Of a stretch of 64,000 nt of DNA, positions 8,215 to 54,235 are shown piece after piece (within the stretch, counting starts at the first letter, position 1; every line of letters starts with the position of its first letter). The position numbers and the translations under genes were made by a program. The notes beneath the pieces are model-generated. The model searched no databases. It was not told the DNA's origin and saw only the letters and a list, made by a program, of their open reading frames with translations. The stretch spans positions 1-64,000 of the forward strand of contig NZ_JAUDCO010000008.1 of the NCBI RefSeq assembly GCF_030373545.1, read 5' to 3'. The DNA is from Collinsella tanakaei (lineage in GTDB: Bacteria; Actinomycetota; Coriobacteriia; Coriobacteriales; Coriobacteriaceae).

Positions 8215-8220
8215 CGGCAT

Positions 8221-8310
8221 ATCGGAGATGAAAACACGACCCCGTCGGGTAGTCGGGGTGCGGGCGGCGCCCGTCAGTAACCTGCCTCCTTGGTTGTCCC
8301 TTCTCCGCGT
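8221..8310 (+). ncRNA. Candidate yjdF riboswitch
   Basis: The leader of a yjdF gene folds on paper into a closed multi-stem structure. The closing stem is cggag (8223-8227) with ctccg (8303-8307). Inner stems are accccg/cggggt (8239-8244 with 8254-8259), cggg/cccg (8261-8264 with 8270-8273) and aacc/ggtt (8279-8282 with 8292-8295). The yjdF RNA class is known to sit before yjdF genes and to respond to azaaromatic compounds. The assignment rests on gene context and hand-drawn pairing, not on a covariance-model search. The ribosome site aaggagga (8323-8330) lies just outside the closing stem. Confidence 0.65.
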
Positions 8311-8337
8311 GGCTTCTACATAAAGGAGGAATGTGCC

Positions 8338-51225: not shown

Positions 51226-52101
51226 CTAGAAGGCCGCGAGCACCGCGCCGTCGTAGGTCTCGTCCAGATAGGCCTTGAAGTCATCGGTCGTGAGCACGGC
51301 AACGAGCGCCCGGATGGCCTCGTTGTCCTCGCGGTCGGGCGTGGTGCAGATGACGTTGGCGTACTCGGTCTGGATGACCTCGGACTGCGGGTCCTCGGAG
51401 GCGATGGCGTCTTTCAGGGACAGGCCGGCATCGATGGCGTAGTTGCCGTTGATCACCGAGAGGTCGACATCGGCCAGGGTGCTCGGCAGCATCGCCGCCT
51501 CCTGCTCGATGATGTCGAGGTTATGCGGGTTGTCCACGATATCGTTCTTGGCGGCGGTGATGCCGGCGTCCTCGGCCAACGTGATCAGGCCCAGATCCTG
51601 CAAAAGCAGCAGGGCGCGACCCTCGTTGGTGGGGTCGTTGGGCACCGAGACCTTCGCGCCGTCCGCCACGTCGGCGATGTCGCCGAGGGTGTTGGAGAAC
51701 ACGCCCATGGGCTCGAAGTGGATGGAGCCCGCGTTCACCAGGTCGGTACCGTTCTCCTCGTTGTAGTTGTTGAGGTAGTTGATGTGCTGGAAGTAGTTGG
51801 CGTCCACCTCGCCGGAGGACGTGACCTGGTTGGGGATGATGTAGTCGGTGTACTCCTTGACCTCGAGCTCGATGCCCTGCTCGGCAAGCAGCGGCTTGGC
51901 GTAGTCGTTCAGGATCTCGGCATGCGGCGAGGGGGAGGCGGCGACGGTCAGCTTGGTCGCGCCAGCGGTGCTGCCGGCAGCCTGCTCGCCTGCGTCCTCG
52001 GAACCGCAGCCGGCAAGACCGGCCAGGCCGGCCAGACTCAGACCCGCGGCAATCTGGAGGGCGCGGCGACGGGTGATCTGGGAAGATGCGATGTTGTTCA
52101 T
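51226..52101 (-). CDS. metQ: Methionine ABC transporter, substrate-binding lipoprotein
   Basis: 291-aa MetQ/NlpA lipoprotein that captures methionine outside the membrane. The signal peptide has an RRR motif (SQITRRRALQIAAGLSLAGL) and ends in lipobox LAGC; the twin-arginine-like RR is noteworthy. The mature part shows VAASPSPHAEILNDYAKPLL, DANYFQHINYLNNYN, VSVPNDPTNEGRALLLLQ and LSVINGNYAIDAGL, all typical of MetQ. It is the third gene of metN-metI-metQ, 57 bases after metI. Confidence 0.96.
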   Translation of the reverse strand: MNNIASSQITRRRALQIAAGLSLAGLAGLAGCGSEDAGEQAAGSTAGATKLTVAASPSPHAEILNDYAKPLLAEQGIELEVKEYTDYIIPNQVTSSGEVDANYFQHINYLNNYNEENGTDLVNAGSIHFEPMGVFSNTLGDIADVADGAKVSVPNDPTNEGRALLLLQDLGLITLAEDAGITAAKNDIVDNPHNLDIIEQEAAMLPSTLADVDLSVINGNYAIDAGLSLKDAIASEDPQSEVIQTEYANVICTTPDREDNEAIRALVAVLTTDDFKAYLDETYDGAVLAAF

Positions 52102-52158: not shown

Positions 52159-52824
52159 CTAGCGGTGGTCGACCTTGCGGGCGATGAGGTCGCAGACGCT
52201 CTGAATGAGCTGGACCACGACCACGAGCAAGACGACCGTGATGATCATGAGCTCGCTTTGATAGCGATAGTAACCGTAGCGAATGGCGATGTCGCCCAAG
52301 CCGCCCGCGCCCACCGCGCCGGCGATGGCCGTATAGCCCAGCACGGCGATGAGCGTGACCGCGACGCCGCGGACGATGGAGGGCAGGGCCTCGGGCAGCA
52401 GTGCGGAGAACACGATGCGCGGCACGCTCGCGCCACAAGCCTCGGCGGCCTCGACGGCGTCGCGCGGAACCTCGGCGAGCGACTGCTCAATCATGCGCGC
52501 CACGAAGGGCGCGGTCGAGACGACGAGCGGAACGATGACGCCGCGCACGCCGGTGATGGTTCCGGCCACGGTGCGCGTCACCGGGATGAGCAGGATGAGC
52601 AAGATGATGAACGGCATCGAGCGGCCGATGTTGACGATCCAGCCCAAAACGGCGTTGGCGACGGGCGCGGGGCGCAGGCCGCCGGGTGCGGTCAGATGCA
52701 GGATGACGCCGAGCACGATGCCGATCACGTAGGCGATCGCGCAGGACAAAAACAGCATGATGAACGTATCGAGCGTGCCCTGGGCGAGCAGGGCACCGTA
52801 CTCGGAGAGAAACTCGTTAAGCAT
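52159..52824 (-). CDS. metI: Methionine ABC transporter, permease
   Basis: 221-aa inner-membrane permease with five helices. The coupling-helix EAA motif is EAAEACGASVPRIVFSALLP (about 140-160), followed by LIAVLGYTAIAGAVGAGGLG and IAIRYGYYRYQSELM, as in MetI of E. coli (217 aa). Its start (ATG 52824) overlaps the end of metN by 8 bases. Confidence 0.96.
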   Translation of the reverse strand: MLNEFLSEYGALLAQGTLDTFIMLFLSCAIAYVIGIVLGVILHLTAPGGLRPAPVANAVLGWIVNIGRSMPFIILLILLIPVTRTVAGTITGVRGVIVPLVVSTAPFVARMIEQSLAEVPRDAVEAAEACGASVPRIVFSALLPEALPSIVRGVAVTLIAVLGYTAIAGAVGAGGLGDIAIRYGYYRYQSELMIITVVLLVVVVQLIQSVCDLIARKVDHR

Positions 52825-53704
52825 CCCACTCCACCTTTCCGAGCAGCACGCGCGTCGCCTCGGCCTTAGGCTCGGCAAAGACGCGCTCCACACTCCCCTG
52901 CTCCACCACGCGCCCGCTCTCGAGCACCGCGACGTTGCGGCAGATCTTCTGCACGACATCCATGGAATGGGTGATGACCACCAGCGTCACGCCCGTCTCG
53001 CGGTTGATGTCGCGCAGCAGCTTCAGGATCGTGTTCGTGCTCTTGGGATCGAGGGCGCTGGTGGCCTCGTCGCACAGGATGACCTCAGGCTCGCAGGCGA
53101 GCGCACGCGCTATGGCGACGCGCTGCTGCTGTCCGCCGGAAAGCTGGGAGGGATACGAAGCTGCCTTCTCACGCAGGCCCACACGGTCGAGCAGGGCGAG
53201 CGCGCGCTCGCGATCGGCAGTGGTGACCTTGCCATTTGCGGCAAGGTACGGGAAGCACACGTTGTCGAGGACCGTCTTTTGCGCCAGCAGGCCGAAGCTC
53301 TGGAAGATCATGGCGACGCGGCGGCGGTAGCTGCGCAGCGCGGCGCCGGACAACCCGGTCACATCGGTTCCGTCGACGACGACGGAGCCGCTCGTGGGCC
53401 GCTCGAGCAGGTTGATGGTGCGCACGAGCGTGGACTTGCCCGCGCCGCTCATGCCGATGATGCCGAAGATGTCGCCGTCGGCGATGTCGAGGCAGATGTC
53501 CTCGAGTGCATGGACCTTGCCGTCGGCGGCGGCGAGAGATGCCGCGGCCTCGGACGTCGCCGCCGTCGCGGCGGCTGCGGCCATCACGGGATTGCCGCTT
53601 TGCGCCGACGCGAGCGCGACGGCGTCATCCGTGGCGCGCGCCGTGCGTCCGGCGCCCTTTTTGGGCAGGTCATACGTCTTGTATACGTGTTGTATGCTTA
53701 TCAC
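52817..53704 (-). CDS. metN: Methionine ABC transporter, ATP-binding protein
   Basis: 295-aa ATPase powering methionine uptake. Walker A GMSGAGKSTLVRTI, Q-loop IFQSFGLLAQKTV, signature LSGGQQQRVAIARAL, Walker B VILCDEATSALDP and H-loop VVITHSMDVV are complete. Two departures from the family are visible. An Ala-rich insertion of about 40 residues (around 24-62) splits the first strand from GKVHALEDI. The C-terminal NIL domain, which in E. coli MetN senses cytoplasmic methionine, is absent. The GTG start has cggag 8 bases upstream. Control may therefore lie in the leader at 53770-53886 rather than in the ATPase. Confidence 0.95.
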   Translation of the reverse strand: MISIQHVYKTYDLPKKGAGRTARATDDAVALASAQSGNPVMAAAAATAATSEAAASLAAADGKVHALEDICLDIADGDIFGIIGMSGAGKSTLVRTINLLERPTSGSVVVDGTDVTGLSGAALRSYRRRVAMIFQSFGLLAQKTVLDNVCFPYLAANGKVTTADRERALALLDRVGLREKAASYPSQLSGGQQQRVAIARALACEPEVILCDEATSALDPKSTNTILKLLRDINRETGVTLVVITHSMDVVQKICRNVAVLESGRVVEQGSVERVFAEPKAEATRVLLGKVEWDA

Positions 53705-53742
53705 GGGATTGGCTCCGCTCGATGATATGGATGAGGTAAGAA

Positions 53743-53791
53743 GGCGGGCCGCCTCCCGCCGGAGACGACCTAACGAAGGCGCCCGGTCTCC
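53743..53791 (-). promoter_or_regulatory. Candidate attenuator of metNIQ
   Basis: On the minus strand, after the leader ORF, GGCGGG/CCCGCC (53755-53760 with 53743-53748) forms a GC hairpin followed by TTCTTACC. Just upstream GGAGAC/GTCTCC (53786-53791 with 53761-53766) can form a second stem spanning the leader stop. Mutually exclusive folding was not computed. Confidence 0.5.
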
Positions 53792-53886
53792 CCATGCGCG
53801 AGAACATCGCTCGGCATGGCAAAGTGCCCGGGCGAGGGCATCTCCATGACCATCATCATCGCGATATGTGCGGCAACCGTAAACAT
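53770..53886 (-). CDS. Met-rich leader peptide of the metNIQ operon
   Basis: 38-codon ORF beginning MFTVAAHIAMMMVMEMPSPG and containing seven Met codons, five of them within residues 10-16. It ends 65 bases before metN. There is no Shine-Dalgarno sequence. The promoter hexamers at 53894-53922 would start transcription at about the ATG, so translation would be leaderless, a common mode in actinobacteria. By analogy with trp and his leaders, ribosome stalling when Met-tRNA is scarce could prevent a downstream terminator from forming. The ORF being translated is inferred from composition and position. Confidence 0.65.
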   Translation of the reverse strand: MFTVAAHIAMMMVMEMPSPGHFAMPSDVLAHGETGRLR

Positions 53887-53893
53887 AACGGTT

Positions 53894-53922
53894 AGAGTAG
53901 CAGGGCGCTTTAGCAGATGCAA
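53894..53922 (-). promoter_or_regulatory. metNIQ operon promoter
   Basis: Minus strand -35 TTGCAT (53917-53922), spacer 17, -10 TACTCT (53894-53899). The predicted start is within 1-2 bases of the leader ATG at 53886. Confidence 0.6.
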
Positions 53923-54235
53923 GCGCGCGCCCGAAAATAGGGGGCGCGCAAACAAGTCGAAACCCGATACCGCCACCGTGCGCCTATGGGACACAGCAAT
54001 CGGGACGAGCCATAGCACGCTTTACGAAGTGAGCGCTTCGATTCGAGATTCCCGAGTAGACAGGCGCACGCTTACAGTAAAACAGCAGGTATAGAAATTG
54101 TCACCGCAGCGGTATACAAAGCGAATCCGATTTCTCGCACACACTTCGCGAAGTAGGGTTATCTGATCCTGCCCGGACAAGCCTCAGATACCCCAATCTG
54201 GAGCACAAGCAACCTGCCGCTCTGCCCCACCACAT
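53923..54235. other. Intergenic region upstream of metNIQ
   Basis: About 310 bases of mixed GC between the met promoter and the asp23 terminator. No gene, tRNA or clear repeat seen; no T-box or SAM riboswitch landmark was found. Confidence 0.45.

Follow-up and report, generated by a model that had tools for sequence, protein, structure and literature searches.

The DNA analysed here, a stretch of 64,000 nucleotides that we call the window, contains a short open reading frame crowded with methionine codons directly upstream of the methionine importer operon metNIQ. This raises the question of whether the reading frame is a leader peptide through which the ribosome reports methionine supply to the operon, and, if so, which RNA structures take the decision. 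Known regulators of methionine genes are SAM riboswitches, T-boxes and repressors. Judging from sequence and comparison, we put at roughly 0.8 the probability that the leader controls metNIQ as a methionine-responsive, ribosome-mediated attenuator. The features are collected in Table 1.

The leader ORF lies on the minus strand and has 38 codons, seven of them ATG. Five of the seven methionines fall within the seven residues MMMVMEM, and the last is encoded by the ATG at 53841-53839. No other seven-codon stretch with at least five ATG exists in the six frames of the window, and none was obtained in 50 dinucleotide shuffles of it. The ORF ends with a TAG stop, 65 nt before the GTG start of metN, which is followed by metI and metQ on the same strand. 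The operon supplies the amino acid of the leader, as it encodes a MetQ/NlpA-type binding protein and a MetN-like ATPase. The first-pass annotation of the window had described the ORF with its seven Met codons and the cluster of five within seven residues, the 65-base distance to metN, GC hairpins that follow and a MetN lacking the NIL domain. The minus-strand sequence, the folding, which gives GC-rich hairpins, and Pfam, which finds ABC_tran and no NIL match in MetN, bear out each of these points. The listed ORF of metI overlaps metN, and the true start of metI is probably further downstream.

Table 1. Coordinates of the leader, its putative RNA structures and the metNIQ genes in the window.
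Feature	Position	Strand	Basis
Promoter-like boxes: -35 TTGCAT (53922-53917), 17-nt spacer, extended -10 TGC-TACTCT (53902-53894)	53894..53922	-	Sequence and conservation
Leader ORF, putatively leaderless, MFTVAAHIAMMMVMEMPSPGHFAMPSDVLAHGETGRLR	53770..53886	-	Sequence, homologues, ATG frame-locking 360:4:0
Met-codon run ATGATGATGGTCATGGAGATG	53839..53859	-	Sole such run in the window
Hairpin P1: CGCCCGG (53834-53828) / CCGGGCG (53786-53780) and inner stem	53780..53834	-	Fold z -2.4; inner-stem covariation
Hairpin H2: GGTCGTCTCC-GGCG-GGAGGCGGCC, putative antiterminator in this species	53747..53770	-	Covariation, arm-swap test
Hairpin T': GGCGGG-AGGCGG-CCCGCC then UUCUU, putative intrinsic terminator	53738..53760	-	MFE -13.0 kcal/mol, z -1.0
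Shine-Dalgarno region of metN, GAGCGGAG	53713..53720	-	Identical 8-mer in 49/71 homologues
metN, importer ATPase, GTG start, no NIL domain	52817..53704	-	Pfam ABC_tran only; best NCBIfam match TIGR02314 MetN, below cut-off
metI, permease	52159..52959	-	BPD_transp_1
metQ, methionine-binding lipoprotein	51226..52101	-	Lipoprotein_9 2.8e-79; MetQ/NlpA family models, below cut-offs

The importer was also considered as the sole methionine source of the cell, as MetE (PF01717) is absent from the genome. Yet two homocysteine S-methyltransferase domains are present, so the cell may also make methionine from homocysteine, and this idea was abandoned. As a separate observation, the conservation of the 8-mer GAGCGGAG exceeds what a plain Shine-Dalgarno sequence would need.

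The leader ATG stands 7 nt 3' of the extended -10 box TGCTACTCT, in which TGC directly precedes the hexamer TACTCT (53899-53894). A generic sigma-70 scan returned no promoters and did not list the TTGCAT/TACTCT pair; the promoter assignment therefore rests on conservation. An in-frame ATG follows a TAnnnT box by 6-9 nt in 73 of 74 homologues, by exactly 7 nt in 64 of those 73, and TG occupies the extended -10 position in 55 homologues. The conserved spacing agrees with the earlier view that the ORF begins beside the predicted transcription start, and it supports leaderless initiation of the leader. Counting ATG triplets from the start codon up to the last Met, the 73 leaders with an assignable start have 360 in frame, while the other two frames hold 4 and 0. 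In the alignment, every indel from the start up to the Met run has a length divisible by three. Frame-locked ATGs, ATG spacing and triplet indels are what a translated, leaderless ORF predicts, and translation is likewise predicted for the window leader with its Met fraction of 7/38. The substitutions between the start and the Met run show no third-position excess, which means that the residues other than Met are without clear constraint at the protein level.

Two observations concern the promoter region. An inverted repeat, GCGCGCCC-CCTATTTTC-GGGCGCGC, is found at 53924-53951, immediately upstream of the -35 region; it may represent an operator or what is left of a terminator. In one leader from another genus, promoter and leader start are identical to window positions 53850-53960 over tens of bases while the downstream part differs, the result of either recombination or a chimeric assembly.

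By DNA search, 20 of 45 congeneric genomes contain the leader, and strong MetQ matches occur in exactly the same 20. The remaining genomes lack the leader because they lack the operon. Once aligned, the leaders are seen to retain the Met run, P1, H2 and the metN start. The covariance model R1 detects the leader in 42/67 genomes of the family, covering all 6 genera, and in 78/397 genomes of the order, covering 14 genera, with one of the 78 being a chance match. The strong R1 matches that were inspected lie upstream of metN, one per genome. Homologues of the metN leader are found throughout Coriobacteriaceae and in part of Atopobiaceae. Of the 71 stretches, 70 that were retrieved with a strict pattern come from Collinsella, Enorma, Olsenella, Thermophilibacter and related members of these two families. 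A strict-pattern match in Paraburkholderia was judged to be chance, as were ten weak covariance-model matches and four further ones outside the class, these fourteen lying inside genes or in unrelated sequence. The genome itself holds no other credible copy.

Homologous leaders lacking conserved Met codons would have spoken against the reading of the first-pass annotation. In the comparison, each of the 73 metN leaders whose start can be assigned has between 3 and 9 Met codons, with a median of 7; a few Atopobiaceae leaders, four in number, have merely 3-4. The last Met codon, directly before P1, is invariant in the core set, which was collected with a pattern including this codon; the covariance-model matches were not so selected.

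Model R2, built from all metN leaders and searched over the class, extends the family to other orders of Coriobacteriia. Here the leaders, for example MVRFAAFVMMMDMMMTQPGSSRACEGSGRLGHPAVA, stand upstream of an O-acetylhomoserine sulfhydrylase-like gene (metY), which is a methionine-synthesis gene. These metY-type leaders (MMMDMMMTQPG) have 5-8 Met codons, and a Met-rich leader with P1 is present at 22 such loci and their relatives, with two or three copies in each of three genomes. Model R3, built from the metY leaders, adds leaders of this type from several more families of the class. It recovers the window leader with an E-value of 8e-8 and, applied to a sample of the phylum, gave no credible match outside the class. 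The metY leaders carry an upstream GGAGG motif and are probably not leaderless. The conserved GGAGGTG is located about 16 nt before the leader ATG, which is unusually distant. Another family of the order has MSSLFVHIMDMMMPKPGLVG... as its leader before metN, with P1 rebuilt as GCCUG/CAGGC and the pairing kept; the six loci of this variant look leaderless. In 31 metY and variant leaders, P1 has a mean z of -4.0 and folds better than shuffles in nearly all.

This conservation over the class, including before a methionine-making gene, makes it very probable that the leader senses methionine shortage via a stalled ribosome. Attenuation by Met-tRNA supply, which the first-pass annotation had called plausible, gains strong support from the comparison, that is from the conserved Met codons and the metY leaders.

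Which structures would translate a stalled ribosome into control of the operon? In all leader types, the 5' arm of P1 begins 4-6 nt downstream of the last Met codon, and is expected to lie within the footprint of a ribosome stalled there. The outer stem of P1 is almost invariant, GCCCGG/CCGGGC in most types and GCCUG/CAGGC in the variant family, while the length of the interior varies freely. The inner stem of P1 and H2 covary among 57 leaders: 93.2% of the cells are paired, compared with 85.4% in shuffles, and 19/33 pairs change on both sides (12.5 in shuffles). Double-change cells number 146 against 34 in shuffles. Covariation reaches a score of 0.315, compared with 0.162 for shuffles and at most 0.106 with the 3' partner slid; all these counts lean towards P1 and H2 as the alignment was fitted to the tested structure. 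An ungapped count for H2 agrees with this picture. In H2, 9/10 pairs change on both sides in the same 57 leaders, and the native arms give -15.6 kcal/mol, compared with -10.4 kcal/mol for swapped arms.

T' overlaps H2, and the two exclude each other. The fold of T' alone is not unusual. A U tract follows T' directly, while the same tract is 4 nt beyond H2. A U-rich tail (at least 4 U in 6 nt) is present after T' in 25/39 Coriobacteriaceae leaders and in 1/32 Atopobiaceae leaders. In 58/71 leaders, the stop codon is at most 5 nt from the start of the H2 5' arm. A pairing between the Met-codon region and an H2 arm, which forms in the fold of the window, was rejected since it is not conserved (p 0.57 for f1 and 0.015 for f2).

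We suggest that the transcript begins at the leader AUG or right next to it, where a 70S ribosome would start translating without a leader. When Met-tRNA is short, the ribosome would stall within the Met run and cover the P1 5' arm. This would leave the H2 5' arm free, and H2 could form, blocking the overlapping T' and its UUCUU, so that RNA polymerase would continue into metNIQ. When Met-tRNA is plentiful, the ribosome would reach the stop codon at the H2 5' arm and mask this arm; T' would form and transcription would end. With no ribosome, the window RNA would fold as P1 and T'.

The predicted ensembles of the window follow this scheme. T' has a probability of 0.96 with no ribosome, and a ribosome stalled at the last Met codon changes this to 0.73 for H2 and 0.06 for T'. 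With the ribosome at the stop codon, T' reaches 1.00, which is partly a consequence of the assumed masking, as this state excludes H2 by construction. The means over Coriobacteriaceae are 0.74 for H2 and 0.18 for T' when stalled, and 0.05 and 0.93, respectively, at the stop. Many relatives are predicted to form H2 whether or not a ribosome is stalled, so that the computed switch is clear for only some members of the family; H2 and T' overlap and switch in the model of the window, which does not hold for every relative. What we infer is that the ribosome stalls and masks, which hairpin terminates and in which direction control runs. The position of the stop codon together with the ensemble states favours T' as the terminator and H2 as the antiterminator in the family of the window. 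On this model evidence, we assign these exact roles tentatively, at close to even odds. The rarity of U tails in Atopobiaceae counts against T' as a universal terminator, and the 13/71 leaders whose stop is upstream of the P1 3' arm do not fit masking of H2. A somewhat more tentative proposal is a class-wide attenuator of Coriobacteriia, consisting of the Met run and P1 before the importer in the gut order or before the homocysteine synthase gene metY in other orders, in which, for the family of the window, a ribosome finishing at the stop beside H2 decides and H2 is the antiterminator.

The same hairpins could also be read with the opposite role for H2, in a three-state attenuator where methionine starvation still turns metNIQ on. 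Here, P1 (1:2) would be the protector, the freed CCGGG of P1 and the H2 5' arm (2:3) would form the antiterminator, and H2 (3:4) would be the OFF state. It is H2, and not T', that is the universally conserved, covarying downstream hairpin, and by reading the alignment CCGGG can pair with YYYGG at the end of the H2 arm and in its loop in most leaders. Native 2:3 pairing is slightly better than swapped over all leaders (permutation p 0.0125), but its coevolution is weak within the families (p 0.12 in Coriobacteriaceae, 0.05 in Atopobiaceae). Moreover, H2 still dominates the predicted Coriobacteriaceae ensemble when the ribosome is stalled, and the U tract adjoins T' rather than H2. We therefore consider this assignment rather unlikely, although it deserves to be kept beside the preferred one.

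It is distinctly less probable that the leader acts mainly on the translation of metN or on Rho-dependent termination instead of through an intrinsic terminator; a precedent cited in PMC9031893 is the leaderless polycysteine ORFs of mycobacteria, which are described as affecting downstream expression. Most Atopobiaceae and metY-type leaders have no U tract after the hairpin, and the 8-mer before metN is conserved; inspection by eye found no conserved partner pairing with this Shine-Dalgarno region, however, and the U-rich tails of Coriobacteriaceae include that of the window.

A nascent-peptide arrest, in which a conserved MPxPG would halt the ribosome for some signal other than methionine supply, is very improbable. 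The motif MP[KSTL]PG[HQ] is nearly invariant among metN leaders, but the metY leaders have MTQPGS in its place and one leader has KPEH. The PG codons are inside the P1 stem, which explains their conservation at the RNA level, and arrest leaves the Met codons unexplained.

Least probable of all, scarcely to be entertained, is a metabolite-binding riboswitch for Met or SAM with an incidental ORF: primary-sequence conservation around CCCGGGCA...GACCGGGCG is strong, but the ATGs are frame-locked with triplet indels up to the Met run, the P1 interior varies freely in length, the best Rfam match at the leader (E 0.036) is below gathering, and the SAM-I riboswitch covariance model (RF00162) has no match in the leader or in the whole genome. 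Searches of the leader against Rfam at gathering and at permissive thresholds gave nothing credible, a snoZ6 match being below its gathering score.

The attenuator that we propose shares RNA control of Met uptake or synthesis genes with the SAM-I riboswitch (S box) and the Met T-box. Those two respond directly to SAM or to uncharged tRNA and need no translation, and neither matches the window leader. With the leader-peptide attenuators of trp, his, leu, ilv and thr, it has in common a short ORF rich in codons of the supplied amino acid followed by alternative hairpins, predicted ones in this case, while it differs in its methionine specificity, in controlling an importer, in being probably leaderless and in belonging to Coriobacteriia. 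The leader would represent a new specificity and lineage of a known attenuator kind. The first-pass annotation knew of no well-described Met attenuator of this type in the lineage, and none was found in the literature searched, whose coverage is mostly without subscription papers, so that absence from it is no proof; Met-codon leader-peptide attenuation seems not to have been described before. An earlier survey of the actinobacteria available at the time saw no conserved RNA structure ahead of their methionine operons (PMC1262725). The leader also resembles the leaderless polycysteine short ORFs of mycobacteria, which regulate a downstream operon (Canestrari et al. 2020, as cited in PMC9031893). 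Both would be leaderless short ORFs with a run of codons for one amino acid in which ribosome speed acts on the operon; the run is of Met and not Cys, and the class is another.

The covariance models permit annotation of such leaders across Coriobacteriia, which are common gut bacteria (Collinsella, Olsenella, Enorma and relatives). Methionine is the initiator amino acid as well, so even when starved of it the cell has to initiate translation of the leader. With a Met-run leader that is conserved and probably leaderless, this question of elongator versus initiator becomes testable.

Elsewhere in the window, an azaaromatic (yjdF) riboswitch (Rfam RF01764, 69.3 bits) is found at 8218-8317 on the plus strand, directly before a YjdF-like ORF that starts near 8335.
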